Assembly (NCBI GenBank): GCA_030841285.1
Contig: JAVECW010000106.1
Span: 1 to 34,490 of the forward strand
Direction of reading: 5' to 3'
Length of the DNA stretch: 34,490 nt
Source: Microbacteriaceae bacterium
GTDB lineage: Bacteria > Actinomycetota > Actinomycetes > Actinomycetales > Microbacteriaceae
Made by a program: the position numbers and the translations under genes. Numbering within the stretch: position 1 is the stretch's first letter; the number at the start of each line of letters is the position of its first letter. Under the pieces are notes generated by a model. That model did no database searches and was not told the DNA's origin. It saw nothing but the letters and a program-made list of their open reading frames with translations. This document shows, piece after piece, positions 27,431-34,379 of this stretch.

Positions 27431-27853
27431 TCAGCCGCCACCCTCGCCGGGCGGGCCAGCCCTGGCCGCGACGCTGATGTCGAAGCCAAGGTAGCCGGCG
27501 CGGGCTGACACGGTGGCGACCGCGCCGCTCACCTCGCACCGGCCGAGTTCAGCGCCGTTGAGTCGTGCCGCCGTCGCAGCGACGTCGCAGGGAAACCCGG
27601 CGATCGCGCCGGACGCGGTGTCTGCCGCGGCGAGCGCGGCCGCGTCCGCCGCACCGGTGACGCGTTGCTTGACCGCAAGCGCCAGCGAAACCGTGACGAC
27701 CATGCTGGTCACCGCGAGCACGGATGCCACGACGCCGACCGCGAGCAGGGAACCGGCGCCGCTCTCGGACGCGAGGCGCTCGGATATGAGCCGCCGAATC
27801 GGTCGGAGCAGGGCGAACGAGCGGCGCCAGACGAGCCGCGCCAACGCGTGCAT
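27431..27853 (-). CDS. TadE-like/Rv3654c-family pilus-cluster protein
   Basis: A 140-residue protein with a basic N-terminus and one membrane helix (about 36-62). The helix is followed by KQRVTGAADAAALAAADTA, the pseudopilin-like pattern of the TadE/TadG and Rv3654c group. Two Cys (FPCDVAA and LGRCEVS) in the exported part may form a disulfide. The ATG at 27853 overlaps the upstream stop (TGATG) and has GGGGGA 5 bases upstream. An ATG at 27877 is in frame but lacks a ribosome site. It is the last gene of the Tad block on the minus strand. A minor pilin or assembly role is inferred from the family. Confidence 0.75.
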   Translation of the reverse strand: MHALARLVWRRSFALLRPIRRLISERLASESGAGSLLAVGVVASVLAVTSMVVTVSLALAVKQRVTGAADAAALAAADTASGAIAGFPCDVAATAARLNGAELGRCEVSGAVATVSARAGYLGFDISVAARAGPPGEGGG

Positions 27854-28230
27854 CAGAGTCCCCCGGCGAGTGCGCATCCGCGCGCGGCGATCGTCAGGCC
27901 GAATGCCGCCGCCGGTCCGAAGGCCGCCGCCGAGCTGAGCCGCACGCAGACGAACTCACCGTGCTGCTCCGTGGCCATGCCGACCGCTCCGACCGACTCC
28001 CGCACGCGATTCGCCGCAACCCCTGCGCTGTCACCGCGGGCGAGCGAGCGCGCGCCGTCCGCCGCGGCATCCGTCAACCGCACCTGTTGCCCGACCACCT
28101 GGACGCCGCCCAGACAACACGCGAGAACAAGCAGTACGGCAGGGACGACCACGGCGAACTCGGCAGTCACACTGCCCCGGTCGCCAGGGCTTAACCCGGT
28201 GCGGTCGTCAGCCCGCAGTCGTGAGCGCAC
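27853..28230 (-). CDS. TadE-family pseudopilin
   Basis: A 125-residue protein with the TadE hallmark RGSVTAEFAVVVPAVLLVLA: a processing-type Gly before a Glu-containing hydrophobic helix. An exported region with Cys pairs follows. It is thought to be a minor pilin of the Flp pilus. The start is GTG at 28230, which lies inside the end of the DUF4244 gene (23-base overlap). No start closer to the motif keeps the RGS residues. The thirteenth codon is TTA, a rare codon in such genomes. Its stop overlaps the next start as TGATG. Confidence 0.78.
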   Translation of the reverse strand: MRSRLRADDRTGLSPGDRGSVTAEFAVVVPAVLLVLACCLGGVQVVGQQVRLTDAAADGARSLARGDSAGVAANRVRESVGAVGMATEQHGEFVCVRLSSAAAFGPAAAFGLTIAARGCALAGGL

Positions 28231-28456
28231 GGCGCACGAGATCGGTCAGGATGCCGCGCACCTCATCGCCCCGAAGGATTACCACGAGCAGGCCGGCAAA
28301 GCCGACGGCGGCCATGGTCGCGACGGCATACTCAGCCGTCGCCGCCCCATCCTCCCGCCGAAGACTCTCGACGAGCCGGTGGACGGCGTAACGCAAGTGG
28401 ACGCGGCGACGCGGGCTCTGCTGCCTGCCATCGCGTGCCCTGGTCGGTGTGTGCAT
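28208..28456 (-). CDS. DUF4244 Flp-pilin-like protein
   Basis: An 82-residue protein with a charged N-terminus and a prepilin-type junction REDG followed by AATAEYAVATMAAVGFAGLL. That is a Gly at 37, a Glu at +5 and a long hydrophobic helix, which suits it as the major pilin candidate. AGAGAGGA lies 5 bases before the ATG at 28456. An in-frame ATG at 28582 would add a Ser/Pro-rich stretch without a ribosome site and is not chosen. In related genomes this gene directly follows tadC. Here 3.9 kb of unrelated genes separate it from tadA and tadB-C. No prepilin peptidase gene is in the window. Confidence 0.75.
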   Translation of the reverse strand: MHTPTRARDGRQQSPRRRVHLRYAVHRLVESLRREDGAATAEYAVATMAAVGFAGLLVVILRGDEVRGILTDLVRRALTTAG

Positions 28457-28591
28457 GACATTCCTCTCTTCGTGCAGCCAGCCTGGTCCAGGCAGACGGC
28501 TCGAGGGAGCGGAGCCCGCATTCAGTGGCGTTCTCGACAACGTGGGGGCTGTGGAGGACGTGGTCGCGAACTGCAGGCTCACAGCACAAGA

Positions 28592-28630
28592 AAGTGCAGC
28601 GACTGACCTGATCGGCCAGCCGCTGCACTT
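28592..28630. terminator. Hairpin between the catalase gene and the pilin block
   Basis: AAGTGCAGCG (28592-28601) and CGCTGCACTT (28621-28630) are a perfect 10-base inverted repeat around a 19-base loop. On the minus strand TCTTGT follows the stem; on plus CCTCTTTTGC follows. It probably terminates catalase transcription before the DUF4244 gene. Confidence 0.55.
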
Positions 28631-28652
28631 CCTCTTTTGCTAGGTGACTCTT

Positions 28653-28684
28653 GGGTTCAACTCACCAAGGGCGTGAGTCAACCC
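28653..28684 (-). terminator. Second hairpin, 20 bases behind the catalase stop codon
   Basis: GGGTT (28653-28657) and ACTCAC (28660-28665) pair with GTGAGT (28673-28678) and AACCC (28680-28684), leaving a small bulge. It lies directly after the catalase gene on its transcript. There is no T-run, so the role as a terminator or 3' stabiliser is inferred. Confidence 0.4.
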
Positions 28685-28703
28685 GCTTCTCAACAGAGAC
28701 GCT

Positions 28704-30173
28704 CTACGCTGCAGCTTCCTCGGCCGCTGCCTCGAGATTGGCACGCAGCTGCGCGCCGAGCTGGGCGTCGACGTTCGTCCAGTACTGGATCGCGCGCTCA
28801 CGGATTCCGTCGTTCTGCACACCGCTGATGGCACCGGTGATCGTCTCGAGGAAACGAACCTTGGCCGCGGCGTCGTACACGTCGCGGTACAGGGTCCCCG
28901 CCTGTCCGAAGTCGGAGTCCTCCGAGTGCAGGATGGCAGCCGTACGGACCAGCGGCCCATCGGTCTCCCAGCTGCCCTCACCCGCAGCTGCAGGGTCTGC
29001 GACGGGACCACCGAAGGAGTTCGGGGCATAGTCAGGGGCGCTGGCAGGCTTGAAGCCGTGACGTCCCTGTCCGTCCTGGGTGTAGCTGTGAACGGGTGCC
29101 GCGTGCGGAGCGTTGACCGGGATCTCGGCGTAGTTGGTGCCGACGCGGTAGCGCTGGGCGTCGGGGTAGGAGAACACCCGAGCCATGAGCATCTTGTCGG
29201 GGCTCAGGCCGATGCCCGGAACCGTGTTCGCTGGTGAGAATGCAGCCTGCTCGATCTGGGCGAAGAAGTTCTCCGGGTTGCGGTTCAGGGTGTGCGTTCC
29301 CACCTTGATCAGCGGGTAGTCGGAGTGCGGCCACACCTTGGTGAGGTCGAACGGGTTGAACCGGTACGTCTTGGCCTCCTCGTACGGCATGACCTGGACG
29401 TAGACATCCCACTTCGGGAAGTTTCCGGCCTCGATCGCCTCGTAGAGGTCGCGGCGGTAGTAGTCGGCGTCCGCTCCGGCGATGATCTCCGCCTCGGCGT
29501 TACCGATGGCGGGAGCGTGCTGCTGGTTCTTGAAGTGGTACTTCACCCAGAAGCGCTCGCCAGCGGCGTTGATCCACTGGTAGGTGTGCGAGCCGTAGCC
29601 GGGCATTTCGCGCCAGGAGCGCGGCAGTCCGCGGTCGCCCATGAGGTAGGTCACCTGGTGAGCGGTCTCGGGCGAGAGCGACCAGAAGTCCCACTGCATG
29701 TCTGCGTCGCGCAGGCCGGAGCCTGGAAGGCGCTTCTGCGAGTGGATGAAGTCGGGGAACTTGATGCCGTCGCGGATGAAGAAGACGGGCGTGTTGTTGC
29801 CGACGATGTCGTAGTTTCCCTCGGTCGTGTAGAACTTCACGGAGAAGCCACGCACGTCGCGCCAGGTGTCAGGAGAACCCTGCTCACCGGCAACGCTCGA
29901 GAAACGCTGAAGCGTCTCAGTCTTGGCACCAGGCTGGAACACAGCGGCCTTGGTGAAACGCGAGACGTCCTCGGTGACGACGAACTCGCCGAACGCGCCG
30001 CCGCCCTTCGCGTGGACGATACGCTCCGGGATCCGCTCGCGAGCGAACTGCGCAAGCTTCTCGACAAGGTAACGGTCATGCAGCGCCACGACCCCGTCTG
30101 GCCCGGTGGTGAGCGAGTGAGCGTCACTGGCGACGGGGGTGCCAGTCTGGCTCGTCGTGTGTTCTTGAGTCAT
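28704..30173 (-). CDS. katA: Monofunctional heme catalase (small-subunit, clade 3 type)
   Basis: A 489-residue cytoplasmic catalase that splits hydrogen peroxide to water and oxygen. It has distal His54 in [15 protein letters not shown], the distal Asn in [15 protein letters not shown] (126/127) and the heme-ligand Tyr336 in [17 protein letters not shown]. Length and the absence of a C-terminal flavodoxin-like domain mark the small-subunit clade; NADPH binding is usual there. A weak GAAGAG precedes the ATG at 30173. The 5' leader is long, because the AT-rich promoter region with two Fur/PerR-like sites lies at 30301-30355. It is divergent from the GlxA-type regulator. It sits within an otherwise contiguous Tad gene cluster. 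Confidence 0.96.
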
Positions 30174-30324
30174 GGAAATGCTCTTCTTTCTTATCTTTCC
30201 TAATGACCAGCCCGGTGATTTGTGTCGTCACCACTCGACTCCCTCCCGAGATCCACACAGCGGGCTCTCGAGAACAAGTAACTACGGTAATGAAGACTCT
30301 TAAATATCCGGGTCTAGGTCGTTC

Positions 30325-30355
30325 TTTTGAATAATTCATCGTTTTGAATGATTCA
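30325..30355. promoter_or_regulatory. Tandem Fur/PerR-like operator between katA and the GlxA-type regulator
   Basis: Two copies of TTTTGAATnATTCA (30325-30338 and 30342-30355) repeat with a 17-base period. Each is centred on a 5-1-5 palindrome, TGAAT-n-ATTCA. This resembles the half-site layout of Fur-family sites (FurA, PerR, CatR), which control catalase genes in actinobacteria. A TATTTA (minus, 30306-30301) downstream could be the katA -10. The repeats are seen; the regulator is inferred, and no Fur gene is in the window. Confidence 0.55.
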
Positions 30356-30447
30356 GATCTACAGTTTGCCTCGATGGCATACATGGCCGCCCCGCAATTC
30401 GGGCCAAACTTCCCACAGTTCCGGACAGACACCTCATGGAGAGCAAG

Positions 30448-31482
30448 ATGACTCGCAATCAGCCCCCGACCGCCCCCGTGCGACGCATCGCCTTCCTCGT
30501 GTTTGACGGAGTCAAGCTGCTCGATGTCTCTGGCCCATCGGAAGTCTTCGCGGAAGCAAACCGGTTGGGGGCGCATTACGAGCTCACCTTCACCTCCCCG
30601 GACGGTGCCGACGTCACGTCCTCGATTGGGATCCGCTTCCCGGTGCATTCTCGAACTGACCAACTCAGTAAGGACAGGGTGGACACGGTCGTGATCAGTG
30701 GCGGGGACGTGTTCCCCGCCGAGCACGTACCGGTCGAGCTCATCGCTGCGGTGCGAGACATTGCGAGCCACACCCGACGACTGGCCTCGATCTGCACTGG
30801 CGCGTTCGTGCTCGCCGCATCCGGATTGCTGGAAGGTAAGCGTGCGACGACGCATTGGCAGCACGTCAAAGAGTTGGCACGACGCTACCCGGGACTTGCG
30901 GTCGACCCCGACGCGATCTTCGTGAAGGATGGCAACACCTATACGTCGGCCGGGGTCTCATCGGGAATCGACCTGGCGCTCGCCCTTGTCGAGGAGGACT
31001 ATGGACCAGAGCTGACGCGCAGGGTCGCCCAATCCCTCGTTGTCTACATGCAGCGATCTGGCGGCCAATCGCAGTTCTCGGCATCCCTGCAGGGGCCTCC
31101 CCCGAAGTCGTCGGCGCTTCGCGAGGTGGTCGACCTCGTCAAGGCAGACCCCGCCGGAAGCTACAGCGTTCCGAAGCTCGCCTTGCGAGCCCGCGTGAGC
31201 GCCCGACACCTCACGCGGCTTTTTGCAGAGGAGATGGAAACGACGCCGGCGAAGTACATCGAGCTCATCCGTTTCGACGCCGCCAAGGCGATGTTGGACG
31301 CCGGCCGCACGGTGACCGAGACGGCGGAGCTCTCGGGTTTCGGCAACTCCGAAACGCTCCGGCGAGCATTCATCAGTCATCTCGGTGTGGCGCCGAGCAA
31401 GTACCAGCAGAGATTCCGTTCCACCCTGACCCCCGACCCGACTGAGCCAGCCGTTTCAATGGTTGAAATCGGTATGTCCTAA
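30448..31482 (+). CDS. GlxA-family regulator (DJ-1/PfpI-like domain + AraC-type HTH)
   Basis: A 344-residue transcription regulator. The first half (about 10-190) is a class I glutamine amidotransferase/DJ-1-like fold with elbow Cys116 in SICTGAFVLAASGLLEG and TTHWQH. The second half (about 225-325) has two AraC-type helix-turn-helix units: VPKLALRARVSARHLTRLFAE, and TETAELSGFGNSETLRRAF some 45 residues on. Family members respond to small metabolites and activate neighbouring catabolic genes. The start is taken as ATG 30448, because GGAGAG lies 4 bases upstream of it. An ATG at 30436 has no ribosome site. The next gene, on the same strand, encodes an HD hydrolase, a likely target. Confidence 0.9.
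   Translation: MTRNQPPTAPVRRIAFLVFDGVKLLDVSGPSEVFAEANRLGAHYELTFTSPDGADVTSSIGIRFPVHSRTDQLSKDRVDTVVISGGDVFPAEHVPVELIAAVRDIASHTRRLASICTGAFVLAASGLLEGKRATTHWQHVKELARRYPGLAVDPDAIFVKDGNTYTSAGVSSGIDLALALVEEDYGPELTRRVAQSLVVYMQRSGGQSQFSASLQGPPPKSSALREVVDLVKADPAGSYSVPKLALRARVSARHLTRLFAEEMETTPAKYIELIRFDAAKAMLDAGRTVTETAELSGFGNSETLRRAFISHLGVAPSKYQQRFRSTLTPDPTEPAVSMVEIGMS
31454..31468. promoter_or_regulatory. Inverted repeat at the end of the GlxA-type gene, candidate operator of the HD gene
   Basis: TTTCAA-TGG-TTGAAA is a perfect 6-3-6 inverted repeat in the last codons of the regulator gene, about 120 bases upstream of the HD-domain gene. It may be an operator or chance. AraC-type proteins more often bind direct repeats, which lowers confidence. 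Confidence 0.3.
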
Positions 31483-31590
31483 TCTGTGGGATTCGTGTCT
31501 TTTCACGCAGTGCGGTCGGCGGGTGGTGCGAACGAGGCTTAGAGCAATGGAGCGGAACGACCGCTTCGCACTAACCAGGAAGCACACGAA

Positions 31591-32229
31591 ATGCCAACAA
31601 CAATCGCCGGAATCACGATTCCGGACACGAAGCTCGTTACCGACGCCACGGAGCTCGTCCGCCAGTCCGCCGATGAGCTGCTCTTCAATCACTCGCGCCG
31701 CGTCTTCCTCTTCGGCGCCCTGCAGGGCAAGCGAAAGGGTCTCACCCCGGATCTCGAGCTGCTCTACGTCGGCGCACTCTTCCACGACCTGGGCCTCACG
31801 AAGACCTACGGCACCGACGACCTTCGATTCGAGATCGATGGCGCCAACACCGCCAAGCAGTTCGTCCTCGACCACGGCTTCTCCGACGCCGATGCAATGA
31901 AGGTCTGGACCGGGATCGCGCTCCACACGACGCCCGGCGTCCCGGAGTTCATGGCCCCGGAGATCGCCTTGGTGACTGCCGGGGTTGAGACCGATGTGCT
32001 CGGAATCGGCTACACCGAGCTCGACCAGTCCCTCATCAGCGAAGTGACCGCCGCCCACCCGCGGCCGGACTTCAAGCGCCGCATCCTCAAGGCGTTCACC
32101 GACGGCAACGCGCACCGTCCAGACACCACCTTCGGCAACGTCAACGCCGATGTCCTCGTGCACTTCTCGCCCGGCTTCAAGCGCACCGACTTCGTCGAGA
32201 TCATCCAGAACTCCGCCTGGTCCGAGTAA
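31591..32229 (+). CDS. HD-domain hydrolase, cyanamide hydratase (DDI2)-like
   Basis: A 212-residue soluble protein with the HD metal site: His34 (LLFNHSRRVFLFG), His65-Asp66 (LFHDLGL), His112 (IALHTT) and Asp135 (GVETDVLG). The NHSxRV opening and the HTTPGVPEF segment resemble fungal cyanamide hydratase/yeast DDI2 and their many bacterial relatives, which hydrate cyanamide or related small nitrogen compounds. A nucleotide phosphohydrolase is the alternative. AGGAAG lies about 7-9 bases before the ATG. It follows the GlxA-type regulator by 108 bases on the same strand and is closed by a 9-base hairpin (32240-32276). The family call is good; the substrate is inference. Confidence 0.82.
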   Translation: MPTTIAGITIPDTKLVTDATELVRQSADELLFNHSRRVFLFGALQGKRKGLTPDLELLYVGALFHDLGLTKTYGTDDLRFEIDGANTAKQFVLDHGFSDADAMKVWTGIALHTTPGVPEFMAPEIALVTAGVETDVLGIGYTELDQSLISEVTAAHPRPDFKRRILKAFTDGNAHRPDTTFGNVNADVLVHFSPGFKRTDFVEIIQNSAWSE

Positions 32230-32239
32230 CGCCCGGATG

Positions 32240-32276
32240 GTCTGGCCGGGGCCCGCTTGCTGGGTCACGGCCAGAC
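32240..32276. terminator. Hairpin at the right end of the catalase/regulator/HD cassette
   Basis: GTCTGGCCG (32240-32248) and CGGCCAGAC (32268-32276) form a perfect 9-base inverted repeat, 10 bases behind the HD gene stop. It lies between the convergent HD and tadB-C genes, with no clear T-run. A terminator role is inferred. Confidence 0.5.
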
Positions 32277-32332
32277 GACGGCGGCGCGCTACGCTCGCAC
32301 GCTTGAGGCGGAGCGTTCTCGTGTGGCACGCT

Positions 32333-33277
32333 CTAGAACGTCGCGACCGTGGAGGACACGATCGCCATGAGCAAGGGCGCAACGCCGACGAGCATGAACG
32401 CCGGCAGCACGCATACGCCCAGCGGCGCCATCAGCCAGACCGCGAGCGCCGCTGCCGCACGCTGGCCATCTGAACGCGCCTGGCGCCTGTGCTGCTCGGC
32501 CTCGCTTCGCAAGAGCTCCGCGGCTGGAACGCCCGCGCGCTGTGCGAGGGCCAGCACGCCATCGATGACGGTCTCGTCCCCTCCGACGACTCCATAGTGC
32601 GCGGATGCCCGCCCAACGATCGACCGCGCGCGATCCACCGAGCCGCCCCCGGTCATCGCGATCGCCATCAGGTCGACGGGGAGTCCCGGCGTGGCGTTCC
32701 GCGGTCGGGCGGCGCGAATCATCCGCCGGTTCCAGTGCCCGCCGAGCACCATGAGCGCGGCGCCAACCCCGAGGCAGATGAGTCCAGGAACGGTCGCGAA
32801 GAGGGTCTGCAGCGTATTGAAGCCAAGGCCCATCCCGAACAGGACGCCGATAACCGGGAGCGCCATGACCATTCGGGCTGTCGCTGCTGGGCCGGCGAGC
32901 GCGACGGCGAGATCCCGTTGCGTCTGCCCCAACGAGCGGAACGACGCCGCCAAGTCGCGCAGGCTCTGCGCAAGTGGGGCGCCCGACTCCGTCGCAACGA
33001 ACCACGCCGCGGCCAGACCGCGCCAGGCCCCGGCGGTCACCGCATCGCCGGCGACACCGGCGACTCCCGCAATCGCGGGCGCAACGCTCTCACCCTCCAC
33101 CGCGGCCGCGACGGCGCGGCGCACAATCGGGTCGGTCGACCCGGCGCCCAGGTACGTCCAGGCCGCAGCCGGAGTCACTCCCGCCGCCAACAGGACCGCG
33201 AGCCGTTCGGTCACGGCAGCCACCGTCTCAATACCGGGCGGTGGCGGCGGGCGCCGACGCACGAGGCGGGCGATCAT
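32333..33277 (-). CDS. Fused TadB-TadC-like pilus assembly membrane protein (type II secretion F family)
   Basis: A 314-residue inner-membrane platform protein of the Flp pilus. Residues about 20-190 match a short actinobacterial TadB: T2SSF segment ATESGAPLAQSLRDLAASFR, then LAGPAATARMVMALPVIGVL and two helices (134-153, 161-180). Residues about 200-314 match the end of a TadC: LLRSEAEQHRRQARSDGQRA then LMAPLGVCVLPAFMLVGVAP. The two are normally separate genes (Rv3658c and Rv3657c in Mycobacterium). Here they are joined, and no separate tadC lies in the window. The ATG at 33277 is 10 bases behind the tadA stop. The frame stays open a further 42 codons into tadA, so a start slightly upstream cannot be excluded. 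Confidence 0.78.
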   Translation of the reverse strand: MIARLVRRRPPPPPGIETVAAVTERLAVLLAAGVTPAAAWTYLGAGSTDPIVRRAVAAAVEGESVAPAIAGVAGVAGDAVTAGAWRGLAAAWFVATESGAPLAQSLRDLAASFRSLGQTQRDLAVALAGPAATARMVMALPVIGVLFGMGLGFNTLQTLFATVPGLICLGVGAALMVLGGHWNRRMIRAARPRNATPGLPVDLMAIAMTGGGSVDRARSIVGRASAHYGVVGGDETVIDGVLALAQRAGVPAAELLRSEAEQHRRQARSDGQRAAAALAVWLMAPLGVCVLPAFMLVGVAPLLMAIVSSTVATF

Positions 33278-33287
33278 GAGCCGGCCA

Positions 33288-34379
33288 TCATGAAGTGGCC
33301 ACCACGGACAGGCGCTCGCGCGCATCCAGGGTGAAGCTGCCGACCTCGGCAAGCCGGCGCACCCCGTTCTCCCGCTCAAGGTGGAGCACCAGGCCGATCG
33401 CACTCACGGTCTGCCGCGCGACGGCCTCCTGGGTCATGCCCGCGAGTGCTCCAAGCGCCTCGATACGTGCGGGCACATCGGAGAGCGAGTTGGCGTGCAA
33501 CGTTCCGGCTCCCCCGTCGTGTCCCGTGTTCAGCGCGGTGAGGAGTTCACGAATCTCGGCACCGCGGCACTCGCCGAGCACGAGGCGATCGGGCCGCATC
33601 CGCAGTGCCTCGCGGAGCAGCCGCTCCATCCCGATCTCGCCCGCGCCCTCCAGATTGGCCTGACGGGATTCGAGCGACACGAAATGCGGATGCTCCACCC
33701 GCAATTCGGCAACGTCTTCGATCGCGACGATCCGCTCGCCCACCGGGGCCTCCGCAAGGATCGCGGACAGCAGCGTGGTCTTCCCCGATCCGCCAGCTCC
33801 CGTGATCAGGAGGTTCTCTCGAGCCATGATCGCCTCGCGCAGGCGGTCGTGTTGCCGGGTCGACAGCATCCCCGCCCCGGCAAGCCCGGCCAGGCGGAAG
33901 CGCTCTCGCCTGGGCACCCTGATCGACAGGAGAGTCCCCGTCGTCGAGATCGGCGGCAGCACGGCATGCACGCGCACACCGTGACGCAGCCGAACGTCGA
34001 CGCACGGCGTGGTCTCGTCGATGTGCCGGCCGCCGAGCGAGATGAGCCGCACCGCAAGCTCCCGCATCGAGCGCTCGTCGCCGCGCCAGTCATCCGCGCG
34101 CGCCAGCCCGTCGCCGACGTCGACCCAGAGCCCGGTCGCTCCGTTCACGAACAGGTCGGTGATGGATTCGCGCGCCAGGTAGGGCGCGAGCGGACCGAAG
34201 TCCGTCCAATCCACCCACTCGGATGACGGCACCGAGCCCGCGCGGTCGGGACCGTCGCGCGAACCATTGTCGTTCTCGGGAGGTGCGAGTGCGTCGGACG
34301 CGACGGTCGGCGCCGCATCCCGCCGCCGTAGCGGCACGAACGGGATGCCTGTTGGGCTGCCGAGCGTGGGATCACTCAC
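33288..34379 (-). CDS. tadA: TadA/CpaF-family pilus assembly ATPase
   Basis: A 363-residue hexameric secretion ATPase powering Flp pilus assembly on the cytoplasmic side. It has an N-terminal disordered region (about 1-55) and a core starting YLARESITDLFVNG. Walker A is TGAGGSGKTT (193-202), the Asp box is IVAIEDVAELR, and Walker B is RLVLGECRG with Glu270. The His box is GHDGGAGTLHANS (His287, His295). All catalytic motifs are intact. The start is GTG at 34379. It is the first Tad gene in the window; a CpaE/Ssd-like gene usually found upstream would lie beyond the right edge, if present. The pilus type and its role (adhesion, DNA uptake) are not determined. Confidence 0.92.
   Translation of the reverse strand: MSDPTLGSPTGIPFVPLRRRDAAPTVASDALAPPENDNGSRDGPDRAGSVPSSEWVDWTDFGPLAPYLARESITDLFVNGATGLWVDVGDGLARADDWRGDERSMRELAVRLISLGGRHIDETTPCVDVRLRHGVRVHAVLPPISTTGTLLSIRVPRRERFRLAGLAGAGMLSTRQHDRLREAIMARENLLITGAGGSGKTTLLSAILAEAPVGERIVAIEDVAELRVEHPHFVSLESRQANLEGAGEIGMERLLREALRMRPDRLVLGECRGAEIRELLTALNTGHDGGAGTLHANSLSDVPARIEALGALAGMTQEAVARQTVSAIGLVLHLERENGVRRLAEVGSFTLDARERLSVVATS

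Follow-up and report, generated by a model that had tools for sequence, protein, structure and literature searches.

A conserved pair of a GlxA-type regulator and a Ddi2-like HD protein beside catalase in a Microbacteriaceae genome: a putative inducible detoxification module

The genes for a GlxA-type transcriptional regulator and for an HD-domain protein, of which the closest solved relative is the cyanamide hydratase Ddi2, form a real, old and conserved regulator-enzyme module, and their pairing is far beyond chance. We analysed this pair in a 34,490-nucleotide stretch of DNA from a Microbacteriaceae bacterium (contig JAVECW010000106.1; hereafter the window), in which it stands beside a catalase gene that is presumably of the KatA type. 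The first-pass annotation had recognised this arrangement, and Pfam, profile and fold comparisons confirm it. We hold with moderate confidence that the pair is a self-contained inducible detoxification module, in which a hydratase of the Ddi2 kind acts on a small C-N compound. The linkage between catalase and the HD gene is recurrent, real but rare.

The regulator, the HD protein and the distribution of the pair

The regulator gene (30448..31482, plus strand) encodes a DJ-1/PfpI sensor domain (Pfam DJ-1_PfpI, 102.6 bits; cut-off 26.6) followed by an AraC-type helix-turn-helix (HTH_18, 69.5 bits; cut-off 33.6), the domain architecture of the GlxA type. The longest open reading frame opens at 30436. 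As judged by eye, GGAGAG stands right before the ATG at 30448, which is therefore the likelier start, in agreement with the first-pass annotation. The regulator shares its domain order with the GlxA/FtrA-type DJ-1/AraC regulators, and FtrA (NF006902) was the best NCBIfam model, albeit the score of 229.8 bits falls below the equivalog cut-off of 425 bits. Unlike those regulators, it has an HD gene as its neighbour and a predicted operator of its own. The sensor domain matched a ThiJ-family structure best (E value 7.6e-24) and, next, InhA (1.3e-23), an isonitrile hydratase of the DJ-1 superfamily (PDB 6ni5 and others). InhA and the regulator both carry CTG and GKRATTHW stretches. In contrast to InhA, the DJ-1 domain of the regulator is fused to a DNA-binding domain, and any catalysis by it is putative.

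The HD gene (31591..32229, plus strand) encodes a protein with a Pfam HD domain (34.4 bits; cut-off 22), which is predicted to be a metal-dependent hydratase. Residues 5-162 matched the NCBIfam model cyanamide_fam (TIGR03401) at an E value of 1.5e-11, the score of 44.2 bits being below the curated cut-off of 109.85 bits. A search with the single sequence detected Ddi2 at an E value of only 0.019, and a 64-sequence profile of the HD family detected it at 5.3e-8. When the AlphaFold2 model of the HD protein (pLDDT 94.9) was subjected to Foldseek, Ddi2 took ranks 1-15 (top E value 4.5e-7). This predicted model has the Ddi2 fold: it aligned with Ddi2 over 193 residues at 2.3 A with a Z score of 23.4, and the next entry reached 12.0. 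Thus, by profile and fold, Ddi2 cyanamide hydratase is the closest solved relative of the HD protein.

The H…HD metal site is retained as well. H34, H65 and D66 align, in the profile alignment, with H55, H88 and D89 given for Ddi2 in the relevant passages of PMC8177086. H34, D66, E81 and H112 are invariant in all of the 180 aligned HD sequences, a set that takes in the window and seven duplicates, and H65 is found in 179 of them. The same passages describe Ddi2 T157 as replacing the fourth ligand Asp, and tie the position to substrate positioning or metal choice. The HD protein has Val132 instead of this threonine, as read from the ungapped profile alignment to Ddi2; since valine occupies the position in 180/180 sequences, the substrate may differ. 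By its anatomy, the HD protein should work like a Ddi2-type enzyme. The enzyme had been described as cyanamide-hydratase-like in the first-pass annotation. The likeness holds by profile and fold, and the stricter classification as a cyanamide hydratase was rejected because of the missed TIGR03401 cut-off and the valine in place of Thr157.

The yeast proteins Ddi2 and Ddi3 (PDB 6dka, 6dk9, 6dkd) resemble the HD protein in (i) the fold over 193 residues together with the aligned metal site, and (ii) the encoding gene, which in yeast is inducible under a chemical-stress regulator and is predicted to be so here. The yeast regulator is Fzf1, to which the text seen of PMC11442136 assigns further targets. 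They differ in that the identity over the fold is ~18-19%, in the Val132/Thr157 position, and in that the HD protein is accompanied by a bacterial GlxA-type regulator and has a substrate that is only predicted.

We collected 173 distinct loci (180 minus seven with identical HD DNA), in which close relatives were kept so that the loci are not fully independent. A GlxA-like gene, defined by a tblastn match to the window regulator at E 1e-5 or better, was found within 450 bp of the HD gene in 121 of the 173, and was absent from that interval in 52. The gene is upstream on the opposite strand in 101 of the 121, upstream on the same strand in 18 and downstream in two. These counts and the conserved predicted operator described below support the earlier proposal that the pair is a small regulator-enzyme unit. 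In the window and its sister genome, glxA is on the same strand as the HD gene. We rejected the idea that this order is unique to the window, as the 18 loci above share it. One same-strand pair is carried by a plasmid of Paenarthrobacter sp. OM7, which is typed as conjugative; it encodes an HD protein 81% identical to that of the window and is the closest relative of the pair seen outside the genus.

HD matches at E 1e-60 or better were detected in 12 of 396 genomes of the phylum, 44 of 301 genomes of the family of G600, and 100 of 297 genomes of the family of G832. In the window's order, 29 of 396 genomes reached E 1e-3, and in five of these the identity was at least 55%. Actinomycetota have the HD gene together with a GlxA-like gene, and so do plasmids of Pseudomonadota, among them those of a Sinorhizobium, a Bradyrhizobium and Pantoea (neighbours on five plasmid stretches were identified by tblastn). 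There were 126 plasmid records with an HD match at E 1e-20, among which Rhizobium, Pantoea, Paraburkholderia and Sinorhizobium were the commonest names. In the annotated plasmid records that we saw, the protein is labelled just 'HD domain-containing protein'. Three further arrangements were seen. In L246, an IncF plasmid that is typed as conjugative and belongs to an Enterobacter kobei sampled from a human, the HD gene adjoins a TetR regulator and the GlxA-like gene is downstream. The HD-gene match in L005/L034 leaves out the first 74 codons, and its end lies within 4 bp of the position where glxA, on the opposite strand, starts in the alignment. On a Bradyrhizobium plasmid, a cytochrome c peroxidase gene (L237, 7263-8009), another peroxide-related neighbour, is near the pair. 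Our literature search found no paper linking GlxA to HD proteins, to isonitrile hydratase or to catalase, and none linking cyanamide hydratase to actinobacteria; a table in a Neorhizobium galegae paper, in the portion of PMC4417242 seen, names a 'Cyanamide hydratase' (PA08850).

A predicted GlxA operator

We derived a 36-bp matrix by motif discovery from a dereplicated set of 43 intergenic regions between GlxA and HD genes, from which the window and its sister locus L036 were excluded. The motif takes a TGTCC-N2-ATCTGTGGG-N5-TGTCC-like form of ~36 bp. In the whole 34.5 kb of the window, the best site (copy 1; 31473..31508, plus strand, 22.2 bits) overlaps the glxA stop codon and lies 118 bp before the HD gene. 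The second-best site (copy 2; 30394..30429, minus strand, 18.1 bits, core TGTCCGGAACTGTGGGA) is just before glxA, and the third-best scored 0.4 bits. With an adjacent GlxA-like gene and a motif before the HD gene, the window carries the complete GlxA-HD module. The sister genome shares copy 1 (22.1 bits in L036) but not copy 2. The exact motif core, a pattern picked after viewing both window sites (on which the matrix was not trained), occurs twice in the 2.57-Mb genome of the bacterium, both times at the pair.

There were 91 hits of at least 15 bits on both strands of the 2.63 Mb of loci L031-L115, training regions included, vs. none for a column-reversed control matrix in the same DNA. Among untrained actinobacterial loci, from which exact duplicates were removed and in which close relatives were kept so that they are not fully independent, the motif lies upstream of the HD gene in 39 of the 41 with an opposite-strand GlxA gene, nine of the 17 with a same-strand GlxA gene, and five of the 17 without an adjacent one. 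Elsewhere in these loci there were four motif hits and no control hit in 2.59 Mb. On the OM7 plasmid, the two best sites (13.5 and 12.2 bits) stand before glxA and the HD gene in the two-site layout of the window, albeit with low scores, 10.7 and 11.2 bits having been reached by chance sites in other places. The motif was absent from all 14 further plasmid loci searched (13 proteobacterial and one of Rhodococcus). We infer that the motif is the operator bound by GlxA.

A wide GlxA regulon was rejected in two settings. Allowing three mismatches, the genome of the bacterium has 18 further core matches against 11 control matches. Five mycobacterial genomes have 10 matches against 11 for the control, with one per genome at the HD locus. 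Separately, some mycobacterial loci (L046, L053, L054, L056, L061, L062, L068, L069, L070, L077, L088, L090 and L102) have HD paralogues and/or the motif near genes for FAD oxidoreductase, SDR and UbiD/flavoprotein, and in these loci more of the neighbouring genes may be governed by the GlxA-type regulator.

The catalase neighbour and the interrupted tad locus

The catalase gene (28704..30173, minus strand; Pfam Catalase 598.5 bits) is divergent from the regulator gene. A DUF4244 pilin-like gene (28208..28582, minus strand; Pfam DUF4244) and a TadC-like pilus gene (32333..33403, minus strand; Pfam T2SSF), the latter adjoining the HD gene on the side away from the regulator, form the two borders of an insertion. 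The tad locus (27431-34379 of the window) is thereby split between TadC and the pilin-like gene. TadC and pilin genes are not separated in this way in five of five genomes belonging to four other genera, and in both genomes of the window's genus catalase, glxA and the HD gene stand between them. GC content across the trio is 57-65% vs. 67-73% in most flanking windows, with one flank at 59%. The identities to the sister genome (G446/L036) are 99% for catalase, 91% for the HD protein, 83% for GlxA and 71% for TadC. Catalase was found in 76 of 120 family genomes at E 1e-100 or better. Judged by eye across the 120, it lies within 20 kb of a TadC match only in the two genomes of the window's genus.

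A catalase gene lies within 1 kb of the HD gene in five of the 173 loci, always on the HD strand, vs. 0.12 expected. The expected rate derives from 107 matches at E 1e-20 in 313 Mb of 40 actinobacterial genomes, while a looser threshold of E 1e-5, at which fragments also count, was applied to the neighbours, and one of the five, L236, is proteobacterial and the rate actinobacterial only. The five loci span Actinomycetota and Pseudomonadota. Catalase is downstream of the HD gene with one gene between in L089 and upstream in L174, and the two genes are 40 bp apart in L236, a Paraburkholderia plasmid. L078 and L195 have a decayed catalase directly downstream of the HD gene. With the same expectation of 0.12, the Poisson chance is 2.5e-4 for the three intact linked catalases alone and 6e-3 for the two intact actinobacterial ones alone. 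Recurrent linkage, the absence of which would have told against the earlier proposal, was thus found. At 1-8 kb from the HD gene, catalase was seen in two loci (L036, of the window's genus, and L095) vs. ~0.7 expected, which is no clear excess. We therefore rejected the view that a bias of accessory regions accounts for all of the catalase signal, the excess being confined to direct neighbours; the 1-8 kb comparison serves as an internal control rather than a matched one. We also rejected catalase as a fixed partner, since 166 of the 173 loci have none within flanks of 8 kb or shorter (many being shorter).

The decayed catalases are found at 8685-9274 of L078 (Mycolicibacterium hodleri) and 8155-8391 of L195 (G1400), which suggests an older HD-catalase arrangement being lost. 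The window catalase is nearer to seven unlinked orthologues in its family (83-87% identity) than to the intact linked catalases (59%, 62% and 50%), and its association with the pair therefore looks independent.

Two palindromes precede the catalase gene, namely TTGAATAATTCAT (30327..30339) and TTGAATGATTCAG (30344..30356), each with one mismatch to TTGAATNATTCAA; they are the sole ones at that level in the window. We take palindromes of the TTGAATNATTCAA type to be FurA-like boxes. A matching pair, with zero and two mismatches, was found in L136. A perfect copy stands just before a furA-like gene on another contig of the same genome (C62). This gene is the best Fur match in the genome and is 60% identical to one of the seven catalase-linked Fur genes mentioned below. 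Within one mismatch there were 12 sites in the 3.03 Mb of partly overlapping DNA searched. The second catalase of the genome (L148) has no palindrome upstream within three mismatches. In all seven of the other family genomes inspected at the orthologous catalase, which belong to six other genera, a Fur-family gene is directly upstream, and the palindrome, with up to two mismatches, precedes catalase in just three of the seven. Unlike these loci of Microbacteriaceae, the window has no Fur-family gene adjoining its catalase. Because of the two FurA-like boxes, the window catalase is likely under separate peroxide control of the FurA type.

Proposed function and its alternatives

The gene families, pairing, conserved motif, fold, metal site and interrupted locus were computed directly, and the activation, ligand, reaction and substrate class of the module are what we infer beyond them. 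In the mechanism we favour, the DJ-1 domain of the GlxA-type regulator would sense a small electrophilic metabolite, and the regulator would bind the ~36-bp operator located ~118 bp ahead of the HD gene and probably activate this gene, while the second operator copy would serve the promoter of glxA itself. The HD protein would be a Ddi2-type hydratase with a single metal ion, and its reaction would be the hydration of a small compound with a C-N multiple bond, cyanamide being one candidate. The pair presumably moves between replicons, and in the window's genus may have come to lie beside catalase inside the tad pilus locus, with catalase probably retaining its FurA-type control. The adjacent regulator with its motif, the occurrence on plasmids and the partner genes of some loci fit inducible detoxification. 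Small C-N compounds are suggested by the combination of the Ddi2 fold with a sensor resembling isonitrile hydratase. A wider substrate range is suggested by the partners, which encode nitroreductase, SDR, cupin, FAD oxidoreductase and UbiD/flavoprotein. Counting against the favoured mechanism are the missed TIGR03401 cut-off, the valine at the Thr157 position, the 52 loci without an adjacent GlxA gene, the 14 plasmid loci in which the motif was not found, the poor conservation of copy 2 in the sister genome, and the mycobacterial motifs near genes for SDR, FAD oxidoreductase and UbiD/flavoprotein, which hint at a broader metabolism of xenobiotics or aromatics.

The strongest alternative is that the HD enzyme handles aromatic or quinone-like xenobiotics rather than cyanamide, and that GlxA senses an aromatic or quinone-type compound. 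We regard this as a serious possibility, albeit a less probable one than the module acting on C-N compounds. The motif was hit 88 times in L036-L115. Where a gene starts no more than 400 bp downstream of a hit, the genes concerned include not only an HD paralogue (five hits) but also clusters of FAD oxidoreductase (four), SDR (two), UbiD (two) and flavoprotein/UbiX-like (two) genes; with the crude gene finder used, 42 of the 88 had no such gene start. The first three same-strand genes after the HD gene include the cupin cluster in 14 of 83 loci and the nitroreductase cluster in eight of 83. In addition, the pair is ~6.6 kb from an aromatic ring-hydroxylating dioxygenase gene on the Arthrobacter plasmid p2MP, and is beside genes for SDR, cupin and NADP-dependent oxidoreductase in Microvirga. 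Nevertheless, the closest relative of the HD protein in both fold and sequence hydrates cyanamide, the accompanying genes differ from locus to locus and are all missing from many, and in the window's genome the exact core occurs nowhere but at the pair.

The first-pass annotation had joined the pair to peroxide defence. If the trio were one co-regulated unit, GlxA would control the divergent catalase gene through the shared intergenic region, in which copy 2 lies between catalase and glxA and is oriented to catalase as the motif elsewhere is to the HD gene; the excess of same-strand catalases within 1 kb of the HD gene also speaks for such a unit. Several observations make this unlikely: (i) 256 bp separate copy 2 from the start of catalase, and the sister genome does not conserve this copy, (ii) the two FurA-like boxes are nearer to catalase, and a box of the same type, without mismatch, precedes the furA-like gene on C62, (iii) the orthologous catalases of the family have a Fur gene upstream in seven of seven cases, and (iv) the Paenarthrobacter plasmid, with the closest outside relative of the pair, has no catalase within 8 kb. 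The pair as a unit is supported, and its fusion with peroxide defence into one regulated unit in the window appears unlikely.

It is slightly more doubtful still whether the module is devoted to C-N triple-bond detoxification, in which the sensor with the isonitrile-hydratase fold would detect cyanamide or an isocyanide and switch on the HD hydratase, and the activities of hydratase and catalase would have to be kept in balance. Catalase would then recur beside the pair because it would otherwise convert these compounds, and cyanamide in particular, to nitroxyl. The sections of PMC8558164 consulted describe how catalase activates cyanamide to a donor of HNO that inhibits alcohol and aldehyde dehydrogenases. 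The earlier proposal had added that cyanamide inhibits catalase through this chemistry; the activation is borne out by those sections, and inhibition of catalase itself was not found in them. This chemistry gives the catalase-cyanamide idea a mechanism, the link being a candidate one here. Least probable of all is a conventional nucleotide phosphohydrolase activity of the HD protein, with no more than a resemblance to Ddi2. In favour of it, characterised HD proteins mainly are phosphatases or phosphodiesterases in the table seen of PMC8177086, and YpgQ, YqeK and exopolyphosphatases also align with the model at Z scores of ~8 to 10. Against it, the Z score for Ddi2 exceeds that of the next entry by 11.4 and the place of the fourth-ligand Asp is valine throughout the family alignment.

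For the preferred module, candidate inducers could be tested directly with a reporter, since its predicted operator is defined. The 2020 review of the HD superfamily names, in the part seen of PMC8177086, a single lyase. If the HD enzyme hydrates cyanamide or an isocyanide, a bacterial branch would be added to that lyase, and, if this is true, the nearby catalase genes would lead to a specific hypothesis about nitroxyl.
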